A stretch of 64,000 nt of DNA from Flavobacterium sp. J27 (GTDB lineage: Bacteria; Bacteroidota; Bacteroidia; Flavobacteriales; Flavobacteriaceae), in the NCBI RefSeq assembly GCF_004303025.1, contig NZ_PJQW01000012.1, positions 76,426 through 140,425 on the forward strand, read 5' to 3'. The notes under the pieces are model-generated. The model ran no database searches. It worked only from the letters and a program-made list of their open reading frames with translations, and was not told the DNA's origin. How positions within the stretch are numbered: the first letter of the stretch is position 1; each line of letters begins with the position of its first letter. Below are positions 17,704 to 25,082 of the stretch, piece by piece. The position numbers and the translations under genes are program-made.

Positions 17704-18243
17704 ATGAAAAAATTAATTTTAGCACTATTCCTTTTCGTTAGTTCTCTAACTCAAGCACAAACATTTACATTAAAAAGCAACGATATTGGTGGGCAATCTA
17801 CTAAGAAGCAAGAGTTTAACGGGTTTGGTTGTTCTGGAGATAACGTTTCACCACAATTATTTTGGGAAAATGCTCCTAAAGGAACAAAAAGTTACGCTAT
17901 TACTATGTATGACCCAGATGCTCCAACGGGTAGTGGCTTTTGGCATTGGGTAGTTTTTGACATTCCTACAAATACTAAAGAATTGGTTTCCAATGCAGGT
18001 AATCCAAGTTTAAATTTAGTTCCAAAAGGTACTATACAAAGTAAAACCAGTTATGGTGCCAATGGTTATGGTGGTCCGTGTCCACCTGAAGGTCATGGAA
18101 TTCATACATACATTATTACCATTCATGCTTTAAAAATAGACAAATTAGGTTTGGATCAAAATACGAATCCAGAAATTGTTGGTTATTACCTTTGGCAGAA
18201 TACGATTGAAAAAGCCTCAATTGTAATGTATTATAGCAGGTAA
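17704..18243 (+). CDS. YbhB/YbcL family Raf kinase inhibitor-like protein
   Basis: 179 residues with a signal peptide (LFVSSLTQA-QTF). The PEBP fold is complete: FGCSGDNVSPQLFWENAPKG, MYDPDAPTGSGFWHWVVFDIP (the DPDAP motif), NGYGGPCPPEGHGIHTYIIT, and the C-terminal helix. The family binds phosphatidylethanolamine-like anions in eukaryotes; bacterial roles are unclear. It is probably periplasmic. It is the last gene before the trp leader region, and a weak hairpin (TCTATT with AATAGA) follows it, so read-through into the trp operon is not excluded. Confidence 0.92.
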   Translation: MKKLILALFLFVSSLTQAQTFTLKSNDIGGQSTKKQEFNGFGCSGDNVSPQLFWENAPKGTKSYAITMYDPDAPTGSGFWHWVVFDIPTNTKELVSNAGNPSLNLVPKGTIQSKTSYGANGYGGPCPPEGHGIHTYIITIHALKIDKLGLDQNTNPEIVGYYLWQNTIEKASIVMYYSR

Positions 18244-18332
18244 TCTATTTTCTTAATAGAATAAATAAAACACTAATTATCAGTAAATTATAACTAATTT
18301 AATACAAAAAAATATATTTTGTTTTAAAATAA

Positions 18333-18365
18333 TTTGGATTTAAAAAAAATATTTTAATACATTTG
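18333..18365 (+). promoter_or_regulatory. Probable trp operon promoter (-33/-7)
   Basis: TTTG at 18333-18336 and TACATTTG at 18358-18365 are separated by 21 bases and match the Bacteroidota vegetative promoter (TTTG and TAnnTTTG). Transcription would begin near 18372, about 11 bases before the leader-peptide ATG. Confidence 0.65.
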
Positions 18366-18382
18366 TTGCATTACAAATAATT

Positions 18383-18439
18383 ATGATTTCAATTACAAAT
18401 AATACTTGGTGGTGGAAAAACTTACGTCAATCGTCGTGA
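18383..18439 (+). CDS. trpL: Tryptophan operon leader peptide (three consecutive Trp codons)
   Basis: An 18-codon frame, MISITNNTWWWKNLRQSS, stands alone in the gap before trpE. Three successive TGG codons (18407-18415) in an 18-residue peptide, placed just after a promoter and before a terminator and trpE, are the hallmark of a Trp-sensing leader. The stop TGA (18437-18439) lies inside the 7-base antiterminator strand at 18433-18439. No Shine-Dalgarno sequence precedes the ATG, as usual in this phylum. The peptide itself probably has no function beyond ribosome positioning. It is too short for standard gene calling but the context makes it convincing. Confidence 0.88.
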   Translation: MISITNNTWWWKNLRQSS

Positions 18440-18478
18440 GCAAATCCTCCTATAGTATCATTTCAACAAATACATAGT

Positions 18479-18510
18479 AAAGGCTTGTCAATCACGACAA
18501 GCCTTTTTTT
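18479..18510 (+). terminator. Attenuator terminator before trpE
   Basis: AAAGGCTTGTC pairs perfectly with GACAAGCCTTT (11 bp) around the loop AATCAC, followed by seven T, one A and six more T. It stands 33 bases before the trpE start and inside the operon leader, so it can only be a conditional terminator. Confidence 0.92.
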
Positions 18511-18542
18511 ATTTTTTAAACATCTATAATCAAAATACAACA

Positions 18543-19943
18543 ATGAAGAAGTACAAGTTAAATACAAATTACAAACAAATTTTAGCAGACACCATGACGC
18601 CTGTGAGTGTTTATCTAAAAATTAGAGATAAATTTCCTAATAGTATTTTGCTAGAAAGTAGTGATTATCATGGTAATGATAATAGTTTTTCATATATCTG
18701 TTTTAATCCAATTGCGACATTTAAAGTTGAAAATCAGAAAATTGAGATGGATTTTCCAGATGCTACTTGTGAAAGTATAAATATAAATTCTTCCATCAAT
18801 GTGGTCAAACAAATTGAAATTTTTTCGAAACGCTTTTCCGCAGATGAAAATAAATTCAAATTCATCACTCAAGGCCTTTTTGGATATATTTCATATGATG
18901 CAATCCAACATTTTGAAACTATAAAAATCGCTGAAAAATCATCTGAAAACAAAATACCTGAAATTTTATATGCCGTTTATCAAAACATTATAGCAATTAA
19001 TCATTTTAAAAACGAGGCGTATATTTTTTGTCATAGTTATGATCATCAGAATAATATAGATGAAATAGAACAATTATTACAAGCCAAAAATTTCACATCC
19101 TATTCTTTTAGTAAATCTGGAGAAGTAATGTCTAATTTAACCGATTTAGATTTTAGTAATAATGTTGCTCTAGCTAAAAAACATTGCAAACGCGGAGATG
19201 TTTTTCAATTAGTCTTATCAAGAAGATTTACACAAAAATTCAAAGGAGACGAATTTAATGTTTACAGAGCGCTTCGCAGTATTAACCCTTCTCCTTACCT
19301 CTTCTATTTTGATTATGGCAATTTTAAAATATTTGGTTCATCTCCTGAAGCACAATTAATTATTAAGAATAATCATGCAGAAATTCATCCTATTGCGGGA
19401 ACTTTTAAGAGAACAGGAGATGATGAAAAAGATGCTGAGATCGCGAAAAAATTAACAGAAGATAGTAAAGAAAATAGTGAACATGTAATGCTGGTTGATC
19501 TAGCCAGAAATGATTTAAGTATTAGTTGTAAAGATGTTACCGTAGAAAAATATAAAGAAATACAGTTTTTTTCTCATGTTATTCATTTGGTTTCCAAAGT
19601 ATCTGGGAACTTAAAAGAGAATCATTCTTTTACCGAATTAGTTGCTAAAACATTTCCTGCAGGAACTCTTAGCGGAGCGCCAAAATATAAAGCCATGGAA
19701 TTAATAGAATCTATAGAACAAACAAATCGAAGTTTCTATGGTGGAGCTATCGGTTTTATGGATTTTGAAGGCAACTTCAATCATGCCATAATGATACGAA
19801 GTTTCCTAAGTAAAAATCACACTTTACATTTTCAAGCCGGTGCTGGTATCGTTTCAGACTCATCAGAAGAAAATGAAACGCAAGAAGTATACAATAAACT
19901 AAGTGCTTTGGAAAACGCATTGAGTTTAGCTGAAACAATTTAA
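18543..19943 (+). CDS. trpE: Anthranilate synthase component I
   Basis: 466 residues. It converts chorismate and ammonia (from TrpG) to anthranilate, the first step of tryptophan synthesis. The N-terminal domain has the feedback-binding LLESS motif at residues 36-40, so Trp inhibition is likely. The chorismate-binding domain shows FQLVLSRRF, GSSPEAQL, HPIAGTFKRTGDD, VDLARNDL and FPAGTLSGAPKYKAMELI. It is the first structural gene of the trp operon and is controlled by the attenuator upstream. The chorismate-binding family also includes PabB, but gene order settles the assignment. Confidence 0.97.
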   Translation: MKKYKLNTNYKQILADTMTPVSVYLKIRDKFPNSILLESSDYHGNDNSFSYICFNPIATFKVENQKIEMDFPDATCESININSSINVVKQIEIFSKRFSADENKFKFITQGLFGYISYDAIQHFETIKIAEKSSENKIPEILYAVYQNIIAINHFKNEAYIFCHSYDHQNNIDEIEQLLQAKNFTSYSFSKSGEVMSNLTDLDFSNNVALAKKHCKRGDVFQLVLSRRFTQKFKGDEFNVYRALRSINPSPYLFYFDYGNFKIFGSSPEAQLIIKNNHAEIHPIAGTFKRTGDDEKDAEIAKKLTEDSKENSEHVMLVDLARNDLSISCKDVTVEKYKEIQFFSHVIHLVSKVSGNLKENHSFTELVAKTFPAGTLSGAPKYKAMELIESIEQTNRSFYGGAIGFMDFEGNFNHAIMIRSFLSKNHTLHFQAGAGIVSDSSEENETQEVYNKLSALENALSLAETI

Positions 19944-20051: not shown

Positions 20052-20615
20052 ATGAAAATAGCAGTCATCGATAATTACGATAGTTTCACTTATAATTTAG
20101 TGCATTACCTAGAAGATTTAAATGCAACTGTAACCGTTTACAGAAATGATGAATTTGAATTAGAAGAACTAGAATCGTTTGATAAAATCTTACTATCTCC
20201 TGGTCCAGGTGTACCTGATGAAGCGGGTTTGTTAAAAGCAGTAATTAAAAAATATGCTCCTACAAAAAGTATCTTTGGTGTTTGTTTAGGACTTCAAGCT
20301 ATAGGTGAAGTTTTCGGAGGAAAATTAATCAATTTAGATAAAGTATATCATGGCATAGCAACTGAGGTAACTCAAACAGAACCAGATTATATTTTTAATG
20401 GTTTGCCTAAAGAAATTCAAGTAGGTCGATACCATTCTTGGGTAGTTGCCCAAGAAGAATTACCAAATGAATTAATTGTGACCTCTATAGACAAAAACGG
20501 ACAAATAATGTCTATGAAACATGCTACCTATGATGTAAGAGGAGTACAATACCATCCAGAAAGTGTTTTAACACCAAATGGGAAAAAAATTCTTGAAAAT
20601 TGGCTTACAAATTAG
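20052..20615 (+). CDS. trpG: Anthranilate synthase component II (glutamine amidotransferase)
   Basis: 187 residues, a class I glutamine amidotransferase that feeds ammonia to TrpE. SPGPGVPDEAG is the oxyanion loop. GVCLGLQAIGE carries the nucleophile Cys78, and YHPES gives the catalytic His168 and Glu170. It is not fused to TrpE or TrpD. The 108-base gap to trpE has no terminator. In many bacteria the same subunit also serves PabB; I see no separate pabA here. Confidence 0.96.
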   Translation: MKIAVIDNYDSFTYNLVHYLEDLNATVTVYRNDEFELEELESFDKILLSPGPGVPDEAGLLKAVIKKYAPTKSIFGVCLGLQAIGEVFGGKLINLDKVYHGIATEVTQTEPDYIFNGLPKEIQVGRYHSWVVAQEELPNELIVTSIDKNGQIMSMKHATYDVRGVQYHPESVLTPNGKKILENWLTN

Positions 20616-20664: not shown

Positions 20665-21660
20665 ATGAGTAAAGCAATATTAAATAGATTAATCAATCAC
20701 GAAATATTATCAAAAACAGAAGCTAAAGAAGTTTTAGTAGCTATCTCTTCTGGACATTACAACCAAAGTCAAATAGCCGCATTTTTAACTGTATACATGA
20801 TGCGTAGTATTACCGTTGATGAGCTCTCTGGTTTTAGAGAAGCACTCTTAGAATTATGTATTCCTGTCGACTTTTCAGAATACAATACAGTCGATTTATG
20901 TGGTACTGGTGGTGATGGTAAAGACACCTTCAACATCTCAACCTTAGCCTCTTTTATTGTAGCTGGTGCTGGAATAAAAGTAGCCAAACACGGTAATTAT
21001 GGTGTTTCATCCATTTCTGGTTCCAGTAATGTTATGGAAAAAATGGGAATAAAATTTAGCAATGATATTGATTTTTTAACAAAATCTATTGAGAAAACAA
21101 ATATCGCCATTTTACATGCCCCTTTATTTCATCCTGCCATGAAAAATGTAGGTCCTATTCGTAAAGAATTAGGCGTAAAAACATTTTTTAATATGCTAGG
21201 ACCAATGGTCAATCCTTCATTCCCAAAAAATCAAATGGTAGGAGTATTTAGCTTAGAACTAGCGCGTATGTATGCCTATTTATACCAAAATACCACAACA
21301 AATTATAGTATTCTTCATGGATTAAGTGGTTTTGATGAAATTTCTTTAACCGATGAAGTAAAAATAATAACTAACACAACTGAAAATATTTTAAAGCCTA
21401 ACGAACTTCTTTTCCCTCAAATTACTTTAGAGAAAATTAAAGGTGGGAATTCAATTGATGAAGCAGCCAAAATATTTTACAATGTTATTTCTGGAAAAGG
21501 TTCAAAAGAACAAAATGATGTCGTGTGTGTAAATGCCGCAATTGCAATTAAAACGGTAGAAAATTCAAACTACGAAGAAGCATTAGGAAAAGCTCAAGAA
21601 AGCTTAGCCAGCGGAAAAGCATTCGAAAAATTAAATCAATTAATACAACTCAGCAACTAA
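20665..21660 (+). CDS. trpD: Anthranilate phosphoribosyltransferase
   Basis: 331 residues. It joins anthranilate to phosphoribosyl pyrophosphate. The PRPP-binding loop LCGTGGDGKDTFNIST (GTGGD at 80-84) is intact, followed by VAKHGNYGVSS, a glycine-rich anthranilate loop with GSSNVMEKMG, and RKELGVKTFFNMLGP. The length is normal. It is the third structural gene, 49 bases after trpG. KHGNYGVSS replaces the more widespread KHGNRAASS form; I believe this is usual for flavobacteria. Confidence 0.97.
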   Translation: MSKAILNRLINHEILSKTEAKEVLVAISSGHYNQSQIAAFLTVYMMRSITVDELSGFREALLELCIPVDFSEYNTVDLCGTGGDGKDTFNISTLASFIVAGAGIKVAKHGNYGVSSISGSSNVMEKMGIKFSNDIDFLTKSIEKTNIAILHAPLFHPAMKNVGPIRKELGVKTFFNMLGPMVNPSFPKNQMVGVFSLELARMYAYLYQNTTTNYSILHGLSGFDEISLTDEVKIITNTTENILKPNELLFPQITLEKIKGGNSIDEAAKIFYNVISGKGSKEQNDVVCVNAAIAIKTVENSNYEEALGKAQESLASGKAFEKLNQLIQLSN

Positions 21661-21691: not shown

Positions 21692-22480
21692 ATGAATATT
21701 TTAGATCAAATAATACACGATAAAAAAAAGGAAGTTTCTCTTAAGAAAAATATCATCCCAATTTCTCAACTTGAAACTTCTATTTTATTTAATAGTCGTA
21801 CCATTTCTTTAGCAAAATTATTACAAAACAGCCGCTCTGGAATTATTGCAGAACACAAGCGAAGATCACCTTCTAAACCAGTAATAAACAATGCACATTC
21901 TGTAGAAGATGTAGTCATTGGATATCAAAATGCTGGCGTTTGTGGTATTTCTGTTTTAACAGATGGAAAATATTTTGGTGGTTCTTTAGATGATTTATTG
22001 CTCACAAAAGCATCAGTTAATGTACCTTTGCTCCGAAAAGAGTTTATAGTGGATGAATATCAAATAATAGAAGCAAAAGCAAATGGAGCTGATGCTATAT
22101 TATTAATTGCAGCGGTCCTAACAAGAGAAGAAATAAAAAACCTATCTCAGTTTGCGCAAAGTTTAGCTTTAGAAGTTCTCTTAGAGGTTCACAACAAAGA
22201 AGAAATTGAAAAATCAATTATGCCAAGTTTAAACATGATTGGTGTAAACAATAGAAATCTAAAAACTTTTGAAGTAAGTTTGGACTATAGCAAAGAATTA
22301 GTAAATTACATCCCCGACAATTTTGTAAAAGTTTCTGAAAGCGGAATTTATACCGTTGAAGAAGTAAAGGAGTTACAAAAACACGGTTATCAAGGTTTTT
22401 TAATGGGTGAACATTTCATGAAAACCGATGACCCTGGTAGAGAAGCAAAAGATTTTATTAATAAATTAATAGTATGTTAG
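21692..22480 (+). CDS. trpC: Indole-3-glycerol phosphate synthase
   Basis: 262 residues, a TIM barrel catalysing ring closure of the carboxyphenylamino-deoxyribulose phosphate. Motifs: IIAEHKRRSPSKP with the catalytic Lys, VLTDGKYFGGS, LLRKEFIVDEYQI, EVLLEVHNKEE, GVNNRNLKTFEV, and SESGIYTVEEV at the phosphate site. It stands alone, not fused to TrpF. Its last 7 bases overlap trpF, so translation of the two is probably coupled. Confidence 0.97.
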   Translation: MNILDQIIHDKKKEVSLKKNIIPISQLETSILFNSRTISLAKLLQNSRSGIIAEHKRRSPSKPVINNAHSVEDVVIGYQNAGVCGISVLTDGKYFGGSLDDLLLTKASVNVPLLRKEFIVDEYQIIEAKANGADAILLIAAVLTREEIKNLSQFAQSLALEVLLEVHNKEEIEKSIMPSLNMIGVNNRNLKTFEVSLDYSKELVNYIPDNFVKVSESGIYTVEEVKELQKHGYQGFLMGEHFMKTDDPGREAKDFINKLIVC

Positions 22481-23115
22481 ACGTTAAACTAAAGATATGT
22501 GGTATGAAATATCCTGAAAATATTGAGGATATTTGCACTTTAAACCCAGATTATTTAGGTTTTATTTTTTGGGAAAAATCATTACGTAAATTTACAGATG
22601 AAGAAATTATTGATATCCCAAAAAACATAAAAAAAATAGCCGTATTTGTAAATGAAGAATTGGGCTCTATTAAAAGTATAATAAAGCAATTTGGATTCGA
22701 TGCTGTACAGCTTCATGGTAGCGAATCACCAGAATTATGCAAAGAAATAAAGAACTTAGGTGTAGAAGTCGTAAAATCGTTTTCTATAGATGAAACTTTT
22801 GATTTCAACCTACTCTCAGATTATGATGATAGTGTTGATTTATTTCTTTTTGATACCAAAGGAAAACTTCCTGGAGGAAATGGAATTTCTTTCGATTGGA
22901 ATCTATTATTAAATTACAATTTAACAAAACCTTTTTTTCTAAGCGGTGGCATTGGACTAACTAGTGTAGATGCCATTAAATCTTTTTTAAATACAAGTAC
23001 TGCTAAATATTGTTATGGAATTGATGTTAATAGCCGATTTGAAAAAAAAGTAGGTTTTAAAAATTACTCCAAATTAAGGAGGCTAAAACGACTATTATAT
23101 GAAGACAAAATATAA
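22474..23115 (+). CDS. trpF: Phosphoribosylanthranilate isomerase
   Basis: 213 residues, a TIM barrel performing the Amadori rearrangement between TrpD and TrpC. LKICGMKYPENI contains the catalytic Cys9, and LFDTKGKLPGGNG gives the general-acid Asp. Further motifs are YLGFIFWEKSLR, AVQLHGSESPE, FFLSGGIGL and YGIDVNSRFE. It overlaps trpC by 7 bases and trpB by 17, so the three genes form the tightest part of the operon. Confidence 0.96.
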   Translation: MLDVKLKICGMKYPENIEDICTLNPDYLGFIFWEKSLRKFTDEEIIDIPKNIKKIAVFVNEELGSIKSIIKQFGFDAVQLHGSESPELCKEIKNLGVEVVKSFSIDETFDFNLLSDYDDSVDLFLFDTKGKLPGGNGISFDWNLLLNYNLTKPFFLSGGIGLTSVDAIKSFLNTSTAKYCYGIDVNSRFEKKVGFKNYSKLRRLKRLLYEDKI

Positions 23116-24286
23116 CGTAGACTCGAAAGGGTTTTACGGAAAATTTGGAGGAGCTTTTATTCCTGAAATGTTGTATCCAAATGTTGAAGAATTAAAAGAG
23201 AATTACTTAAAAATAATGGCTGAACCTTCTTTTCAAGAAGAATTCAATCATTTATTACAACAATATGTAGGCAGACCTACTCCTCTCTATTTTGCAAAAA
23301 GATTGTCAGAAAAATTTAAGACAAAAATATATTTAAAAAGAGAAGATTTATGCCATACTGGAGCTCATAAAGTAAACAATACTATTGGGCAAATTTTAAT
23401 GGCTAAAAAACTAGGAAAAAGAAGAATTATTGCTGAAACTGGTGCTGGTCAACATGGAGTTGCAACAGCTACTGTATGCGCTTTAATGGGGTTAGAGTGT
23501 ATTGTATATATGGGCGAAATAGATATTAAACGCCAAGCCCCTAATGTAGCTCGAATGAAAATGCTAGGAGCAACTGTTCGTTCGGCAACTTCCGGTTCCA
23601 AAACACTAAAAGACGCTACAAACGAAGCAATTCGTGATTGGATAAATAATCCTATCGATACTTTTTATATTATCGGTTCGGTAGTAGGTCCACATCCTTA
23701 TCCAGATATGGTAGCCAAATTTCAAAGTATTATTTCTAAAGAAATTAAGATTCAACTAAGAAATCTAGAAGGTCAGGATAATCCAGATTATGTTATCGCA
23801 TGTGTGGGTGGTGGTAGTAATGCGGCCGGTGCTTTTTATGAGTTTTTAGAAAACGAAGATGTTAAACTAATTGCAGTAGAAGCCGCAGGCCATGGTGTAG
23901 ATTCTGGTGAAAGTGCTGCTACTTCTGTACTAGGTAAAATTGGAATTATTCATGGAAGTAAAACATTATTAATGCAGACAGAAGATGGTCAAATAACCGA
24001 ACCTTATTCTATTTCTGCGGGTTTAGATTATCCAGGTGTTGGTCCTTTGCATGCTCACTTACATGATTCAAACAGAGCAGAATTTATTGCTATAACCGAT
24101 ACCGATGCTATGCAAGCAGGGTTAGCTCTATCAAAAACTGAAGGTATTATACCGGCTATCGAATCCGCTCATGCATTTGCTGTACTAGAAAGAAAACAAT
24201 TTAAACCAACAGATATTGTTGTTATTAATTTATCTGGAAGAGGTGATAAAGACTTAAATACTTACATCGATTACTTTAATTTTTAA
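23099..24286 (+). CDS. trpB: Tryptophan synthase beta chain
   Basis: 395 residues, a PLP enzyme condensing indole and serine to tryptophan. The PLP lysine is in CHTGAHKVNN (Lys91), the catalytic Glu113 is in ETGAGQHGVA, and the phosphate loop is CVGGGSNAAG. The end VINLSGRGDKDLNTY is typical of the TrpB1 class, which partners a TrpA. The start MKTKYNVDSKGFYGKFGG lies within the 3' end of trpF (17-base overlap). Confidence 0.98.
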   Translation: MKTKYNVDSKGFYGKFGGAFIPEMLYPNVEELKENYLKIMAEPSFQEEFNHLLQQYVGRPTPLYFAKRLSEKFKTKIYLKREDLCHTGAHKVNNTIGQILMAKKLGKRRIIAETGAGQHGVATATVCALMGLECIVYMGEIDIKRQAPNVARMKMLGATVRSATSGSKTLKDATNEAIRDWINNPIDTFYIIGSVVGPHPYPDMVAKFQSIISKEIKIQLRNLEGQDNPDYVIACVGGGSNAAGAFYEFLENEDVKLIAVEAAGHGVDSGESAATSVLGKIGIIHGSKTLLMQTEDGQITEPYSISAGLDYPGVGPLHAHLHDSNRAEFIAITDTDAMQAGLALSKTEGIIPAIESAHAFAVLERKQFKPTDIVVINLSGRGDKDLNTYIDYFNF

Positions 24287-24317: not shown

Positions 24318-25082
24318 ATGAATAGAATTAATACAACTTTACTACAAAATAAAAAACTACTTTCCATCTATTTTACAGCAGGATATCCAAAACTTAATGA
24401 TACTATTCCTATCATTCAAGAATTAGAAAAAAACGGAGTGGATATGATAGAAATTGGGTTGCCTTTTTCAGATCCTTTGGCAGACGGACCAACCATTCAG
24501 GAAAGTTCAACCCAAGCTATTACAAACGGTATGACCACTACTCTCCTATTTGAGCAATTAAAAGATATTCGTAAAACAGTTCAAATTCCTTTACTAATCA
24601 TGGGATATTTCAACCCTATTATGCAATTTGGTATGGAAAAATTTTGTCAAAAATGTTCAGAAATTGGAATCGATGGTCTTATCATTCCCGATTTACCTTT
24701 GTATGTTTATGAAAGTGAATACAAAAATCTATTTGATAAATACAAATTAAAAAATATTTTTTTAATTACGCCTCAAACCTCTGAGGAAAGAATTGCTGAA
24801 ATTGATGCTATTTCAAATAGTTTTATATACATGGTTAGCACAGCATCTGTAACAGGAAATCAAAGCGGGTTTGGTAAAGAACAATTAAATTATTTTGAAA
24901 GAATAGCTAAATTAAATTTAAAAAACCCTCAAATTGTTGGCTTTGGAATTAAAGATGGCACCACTTTTTCTCAAGCAACTACGCATCAAAAAGGGGCTAT
25001 AATTGGTAGCGCATTCATTACACATTTAAACACAAATCCTGTTAATAAAATAAAAGATTTTATCGAAAATATATCTATTTAA
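24318..25082 (+). CDS. trpA: Tryptophan synthase alpha chain
   Basis: 254 residues, a TIM barrel cleaving indole-3-glycerol phosphate to indole, which is channelled to TrpB. Catalytic residues are both present: Glu45 in MIEIGLPFSDPLADGPTIQ and Asp56 in the same motif. GLIIPDLP, ITPQTSEERI, VSTASVTG and VGFGIKD are the other conserved strands. It is the last biosynthetic gene of the operon, 31 bases after trpB. The pathway from chorismate to tryptophan is therefore complete within the window. Confidence 0.97.
   Translation: MNRINTTLLQNKKLLSIYFTAGYPKLNDTIPIIQELEKNGVDMIEIGLPFSDPLADGPTIQESSTQAITNGMTTTLLFEQLKDIRKTVQIPLLIMGYFNPIMQFGMEKFCQKCSEIGIDGLIIPDLPLYVYESEYKNLFDKYKLKNIFLITPQTSEERIAEIDAISNSFIYMVSTASVTGNQSGFGKEQLNYFERIAKLNLKNPQIVGFGIKDGTTFSQATTHQKGAIIGSAFITHLNTNPVNKIKDFIENISI

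Follow-up and report, generated by a model that had tools for sequence, protein, structure and literature searches.

In Escherichia coli, the trpL attenuator brings together a leader peptide with Trp codons, the 1:2, 2:3 and 3:4 pairings of the leader RNA, and a terminator before trpE. In Bacteroidetes, the Bacteroid-trp RNA (Rfam family RF01692) appears in the table of new motifs of Weinberg et al. (2010; PMC2864571) with the entries "RNA? y, cis-reg? y, switch? n". Bacteroid-trp RNA was described upstream of the F. psychrophilum trp operon and discussed there as a trp leader (PMC6414381), and leader-peptide attenuation has been proposed for amino-acid operons, with mention of 5' elements of pheA and hisG (PMC6414381; PMC9723704).

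Here we analysed a trpE leader in a 64,000-nt stretch of Flavobacterium DNA, hereafter the window. At gathering scores, the sole Rfam matches within this 64-kb window are one tRNA and RF01692, the latter at 18363-18489 with 73.7 bits (gathering cut-off 49), covering the whole model (1-131) and ending 53 nt before trpE. The match lies upstream of tryptophan genes in a Bacteroidetes genome whose nearest titled relatives are Flavobacterium. In view of this match, the 2010 table and the F. psychrophilum description, the element is already known, as a catalogued family that has been reported in Flavobacterium. A second RF01692 match in the same genome (contig C35; 23.9 bits, E 5.6) fell below the cut-off and was taken as chance. 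With a probability of approximately 0.93, we regard the leader in the window as a member of Bacteroid-trp that controls the trp operon by classical ribosome-mediated transcription attenuation.

Parts of the leader and the operon downstream

The original prediction, made from the sequence of the window, had placed a short frame with three adjacent TGG codons and an 11-bp terminator with a T tract upstream of trpE, the gene beginning 33 bases after 18510. Direct reading bears out each of these parts, as listed here with the remaining features (all on the + strand).

18334-18365, +: Bacteroidetes sigma-A type promoter by pattern match, with TTG (18334-18336), a 21-nt spacer and TACATTTG (18358-18365)
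18383-18439, +: leader peptide ORF MISITNNTWWWKNLRQSS, stop TGA at 18437-18439, read directly
18398-18462, +: 1:2 (anti-antiterminator) structure burying the Trp codons and region 2, from folding, covariation and the RF01692 structure line over the same stretch
18407-18415, +: three Trp codons (the sensor), part of region 1, read directly
18433-18447, +: region 2, the 5' strand of the antiterminator, made up of GUCGUGA, which lies over the stop codon, and GCAAAUCC; from folding and the cognate pairing test
18479-18506, +: intrinsic terminator stem-loop (3:4), from direct reading, terminator scan and covariation
18543-19943, +: trpE, heading the cluster and encoding anthranilate synthase component I; best model TIGR00564 with 427 bits, below the curated cut-off of 517.7
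20052-20615, +: trpG, reaching the curated cut-off
20665-21660, +: trpD, reaching the curated cut-off
21692-22480, +: trpC, reaching the curated cut-off
22474-23115, +: trpF, named by its best matches, which are below their cut-offs
23099-24286, +: trpB, reaching the curated cut-off
24318-25082, +: trpA, reaching the curated cut-off

The leader is thus followed by a complete trpEGDCFBA operon ending at 25082. The leader ORF starts with the ATG at 18383, and the three Trp residues are codons 9-11 of 18, the first of them 72 nt before the start of the terminator. The terminator stem consists of 11 pairs, five of which are G-C, and is directly followed by TTTTATTTTTT, within a T tract at 18504-18517. 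Its loop and 3' arm carry UCACGAC, which is complementary to the GUCGUGA of region 2. Terminator-like sites numbered two, compared to 0.2 expected in shuffles, the second being the opposite strand of the same stem.

The promoter before the frame, called good in the original prediction, has the Bacteroidetes form. The sigma-70 consensus, by which the best nearby site is weak (9/12), was set aside in favour of the Bacteroidetes one. In raw pattern counts over the window and its 80 nearest relatives, 80 of 81 loci have TAnnTTTG no more than 75 nt before the leader ATG, 65 of these 80 at a distance of 16-20 nt, and 73 of 81 also have TTG or TG at a -33-like distance. Since TAnnTTTG has been placed at -12 to -5 (PMC9723704), transcription is predicted to start around 18370, which would make the 5' UTR about 13 nt long. 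The leader ATG has an A at -3, where this base favours initiation in F. johnsoniae (PMC6847099); the A is found in only 45 of the 81 leaders and is thus not a conserved feature.

Conservation of the leader at other trpE loci

To define the nearest relatives, we took the best 80 of 575 confirmed trpE candidates, 75 of them titled Flavobacterium and the other five Flavobacteriaceae, Flavobacteriales or [Flexibacter]. A leader was scored as an ATG-started ORF of 6-40 codons with WW or WWW, at most 400 nt upstream of trpE. An ATG-started WWW leader is found at 80 of the 80 loci, and TGG TGG TGG in 81 of 81 when the window is included, while 8000 mononucleotide shuffles of the upstream stretches (up to 400 nt) gave a WW ORF eight times and WWW never. 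Start, frame and Trp codons of the leader are thus conserved over the 81 loci, and its translation is predicted from sequence. A terminator follows the leader at all 80 loci by a looser scan and a pattern scan; under a stricter scan the best hairpin lay elsewhere for three loci (L012, L042, L066), and one (L065) had none. The expectation that relatives keep both the Trp run and the terminator is therefore borne out.

The class sample comprised 68 loci from phylum-drawn genomes of the window's class with a strong TrpE match. A WW leader was found at 65 of these and a WWW leader at 58 (47 and 41 of the 50 outside the genus), compared to WW in 34 of 6800 mononucleotide shuffles. Two of the three loci without a WW leader have WLW leaders, and the third belongs to genome G238 (L184). 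In G238 (L088, L184), we observed an Rfam trp leader match approximately 1.25 kb upstream of trpE, not directly before it, which suggests that another gene heads the trp operon there. The RF01692 model (E 0.001, strict filters) finds 30 of the 68 class genomes, 28 of them over the cut-off, as opposed to the 65 of 68 found by the leader scan. This indicates, as far as sequence comparison goes, that the trp leader design extends well beyond the reach of the model, and that the catalogued family understates its spread.

Beyond the class, we looked at 25 loci from other classes, mostly best TrpE matches and hand-chosen, thus not a fair sample. With GTG and TTG starts allowed, 19 of these 25 have a WW leader, and three of the remaining six have spaced Trp codons. 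A terminator was found behind the leader at 61 of the 65 class loci with a WW leader. The scan found none at nine WW-leader loci, four in the class (L167, L168, L183, L187) and five of the 19 beyond it (L192, L196, L201, L205, L210). Where found, the terminator starts 59-92 nt past the first Trp codon in all but three loci, despite widely differing sequences; the exceptions are L164 (103 nt), L189 (55 nt) and L208 (50 nt, counted in this case from a second ORF).

The peptide, too, is well conserved in its core, NNTWWWxNLRQ, over the 80 nearest relatives. Such conservation would be expected if the leader peptide, or the terminated leader RNA of about 140 nt, also acted in trans beside attenuation in cis, as has a precedent in peTrpL of Sinorhizobium meliloti (PMC7298713). 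We consider an additional role of this kind unlikely: outside Flavobacteriaceae the leaders have little of the peptide in common except for the Trp run, and RNA pairing can account for the C-terminal residues. In six of the 80 relatives (L023, L027, L030, L043, L047, L077), the stop was observed to have shifted to a TAG two codons earlier. In those six, TCGTGA directly after the early TAG is kept outside the reading frame, so that GUCGUGA is retained. Since TCGTGA is kept beyond the moved stop, GUCGUGA appears to be conserved as RNA rather than as peptide, with the reservation that the six cases may represent one evolutionary event.

Alternative pairings of the leader RNA

The leader RNA folds better than all of 200 dinucleotide shuffles (z -5.8), and when the full leader is folded, the 1:2 structure buries the Trp codons and leaves the terminator free-standing. 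To mimic a stalled ribosome, we hid the RNA as far as 12 nt beyond the first base of a Trp codon and cut the transcript before the terminator 3' arm. Under this condition region 2 pairs with the terminator 5' arm, and with the ribosome at the stop codon no such pairing is seen. Once the transcript extends through the terminator 3' arm, the fold of lowest energy is the terminator, even with the ribosome stalled at Trp codon 1 or 2, the two positions tested in this way. The antiterminator must therefore act during transcription, a timing that we assume. Mean sequestration of the terminator arm, computed from the partition function of the cut transcript, was as follows for the stalled ribosome, the ribosome at the stop codon, no ribosome and a shuffled spacer, in this order.

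80 nearest loci: 0.83, 0.14, 0.56, 0.56
43 loci of other class genera: 0.70, 0.19, 0.44, 0.55
14 loci beyond the class: 0.60, 0.16, 0.51, 0.43
Window: 0.71, 0.21, 0.25, 0.65

For the window alone, the stalled value of 0.71 compares with a mean of 0.65 for shuffled region 2, and 16 of 40 shuffles did as well, which is not significant. Without a ribosome, the arm was sequestered above 0.5 at 49 of the 80 nearest loci, 17 of the 43 other class loci and 8 of the 14 beyond the class; such frequent sequestration makes the 1:2 step less clean than in the textbook scheme.

In the mechanism that we infer, including the ribosome positions and footprint, the co-transcriptional timing and the response to tryptophan, polymerase would start around 18370 and a ribosome would engage the leader ORF independently of any Shine-Dalgarno site. 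With plenty of charged tRNA-Trp, this ribosome would reach the stop codon at 18437 and cover region 2 (18433-18447), so that the terminator at 18479-18506 would form and transcription would stop. If charged tRNA-Trp is scarce, the ribosome would stall on TGG TGG TGG (18407-18415) and open the 1:2 structure, and the freed region 2 would pair with the nascent terminator 5' arm and loop (18482-18498), letting polymerase read into trpE. If the leader is not translated, the 1:2 structure would be expected to form, favouring termination.

We examined covariation in 33 Flavobacteriaceae sequences at less than 93% identity, drawn from 93. Double changes were seen at 3 pairs of the terminator (99.2% of cells paired) and at 9 pairs of the 1:2 structure (82.2%), each count reached by 0 of 500 shuffles. 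In covariation score and in the share of paired cells, too, both structures beat all 500 shuffles; in the number of pair types they did not. For the antiterminator, held in a fixed register, 92.1% of cells were paired in the same 33 sequences and its covariation was reached by 155 of 500 shuffles; the antiterminator is nearly invariant, and thus uninformative for covariation within Flavobacteriaceae. In one relative (L005), the antiterminator seems by eye to be paired in a shifted register.

In light of these null results, from the thermodynamics of the window and the covariation of the 33 sequences, we compared the pairing energy of each leader's region with its own and with foreign partners, double-centred, over 77 loci. 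Eighteen loci without a WW leader or terminator were dropped, leaving 59 leaders. Region 2 preferred its own terminator arm plus loop by -3.38 kcal/mol, and region 1 its own region 2 by -3.22 kcal/mol, values reached in 0 of 5000 permutations each; the control pairing of region 1 with the terminator arm showed no preference in these 59 leaders (+0.16). With one leader per distinct terminator arm (37 leaders), the preferences were -3.92 (region 2 with terminator) and -3.65 (region 1 with region 2), again 0 of 5000 each, and this held under GC-matched permutation and for four choices of the region 2 start (0 of 5000). A control pairing the stretch upstream of the ATG with region 2 had a weak preference (-0.93, a value as low being reached in 140 of 5000 permutations without GC matching and 486 of 5000 with it), and the other two controls of the 37-leader test had none (+0.09 and -0.02). 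GC-matched permutations keep on average about a quarter of the effect, partly because some of them leave a leader with its own partner. The permutations ignore relatedness, and swapping between relatives should weaken the contrast between cognate and foreign partners rather than create it. Co-evolution across 37 distinct terminators thus supports the antiterminator (2:3) at the level of sequence, and the pattern is what a 1:2, 2:3, 3:4 attenuator maintained through sequence change should look like.

These data also bear on whether the hairpin might be a constitutive terminator, belonging to the upstream gene or acting as a fixed damper, with an incidental Trp run. In favour of such an element, terminators between genes are common, the antiterminator of the window taken alone does not outdo shuffles, and the terminator is preferred when the full length is folded. 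Against it stand a hairpin downstream of its own promoter-like site, a Trp run kept at every one of the nearest and nearly all of the class loci, and a terminator arm that co-evolves with region 2, and we find this explanation very unlikely. T-boxes, riboswitches and Trp-binding proteins such as TRAP control trp operons in other phyla. We give hardly any credence to control by a sensor of this kind with a side role for the small ORF: the Rfam matches at gathering scores in the window include no T-box or riboswitch, nor do the 10 matches obtained in 18000-18900 with E up to 10, and the conserved feature is an in-frame Trp run. The identity put forward in the original prediction, a ribosome-mediated attenuator, is the one that we retain: Trp run and terminator are conserved in relatives, and sequence comparison shows co-evolution of the 1:2, 2:3 and 3:4 pairings, in the case of 1:2 and 2:3 over this wide sample.

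Related leaders in the genome and comparison with known systems

We found similar leaders before other amino-acid genes of the same genome. At hisG (contig C12, L214:1185-1298), a promoter TTG...TATATTTG, a His-rich leader MFLNQLHHHHFFHAQARQ and a 12-bp terminator lie 52 nt before the gene at 1351. At pheA (contig C8, L215:1336-1470), a Phe/Tyr-rich leader MLQTTTFYFNNSFYYFWREIRDCYAIH and, behind it, a 9-bp terminator lie 18 nt before an ATG at 1489, taken as the start of pheA. On contig C6 (L216, 191-305 of the reverse complement), an Ile/Val-rich leader MNCNTVIIVIIIIRLPQRVR and a terminator precede a 300-aa gene, aminotransferase-like by eye, and then ilvD. No Rfam match at gathering scores was obtained at these three loci, and two homoserine dehydrogenase loci of the same genome had no terminator-like site in the stretch examined. 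Over the class, HisG was matched in 29 of 60 genomes and 28 loci were examined with a rule of HHH or at least four H: a His-rich leader was present at 18 of the 28, with a terminator behind 16 of these 18, compared to 36 of 1450 shuffles by the same rule, a shuffle set that includes some loci in the wrong orientation.

The look-alike leaders before the hisG, pheA and ilv genes mean that attenuation is not exceptional in this genome. Taken together with the WW leaders in the class sample, they make attenuation in a lineage without Shine-Dalgarno initiation look like the rule here, not an anomaly. The notability that the original prediction saw in finding such a leader in a flavobacterium therefore falls away, also in light of the catalogued family. 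In our opinion, amino-acid operons across Bacteroidota, trp and his among them, probably have ribosome-mediated attenuation as their ancestral and default control. The leaders would have diverged beyond sequence recognition while keeping the 1:2, 2:3, 3:4 logic and a roughly constant spacing from Trp codon to terminator, and RNA family models would see mainly the flavobacterial tip. If so, ribosome and polymerase would have to be in close coordination at these leaders across a whole phylum in which initiation does not rely on Shine-Dalgarno sites.

The element is thus ordinary for its group, and its value lies in how cleanly it would let ribosome-polymerase coordination be tested in a phylum that initiates without Shine-Dalgarno sites: a ribosome loading at a start codon about 13 nt from the predicted 5' end would have to control a terminator 72 nt past the first Trp codon. 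No title surveying trp leaders over Bacteroidota was found among the matches listed in the open-licence literature. What our analysis adds is the apparent co-evolution of the antiterminator across the 37 terminators, the probable conservation of GUCGUGA as RNA, a design that seems to extend beyond detection by the family model, and the presence in this genome of similar his, phe and ilv leaders that match no family model.

In comparison with RF01692, the leader ATG, the Trp codons, the stem that buries them and the terminator 5' arm all align with the model, whose structure line holds only the 1:2 part and leaves the antiterminator and the terminator hairpin unpaired. The leader of F. psychrophilum resembles the one in the window in being a Bacteroid-trp RNA before the trp operon of a congener (PMC6414381), and the relevant passages on this and on other 5' cis-regulatory RNAs name the elements without setting out pairings (PMC6414381; PMC9723704). 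None of the 10 Rfam matches (E up to 10) around the leader in the window is an enteric trp-leader family. By analogy, the leader in the window would share the outline of its action with E. coli trpL, from which it differs in its three adjacent Trp codons, the lack of a Shine-Dalgarno site, a predicted 5' UTR of only about 13 nt and a promoter of the Bacteroidetes type.
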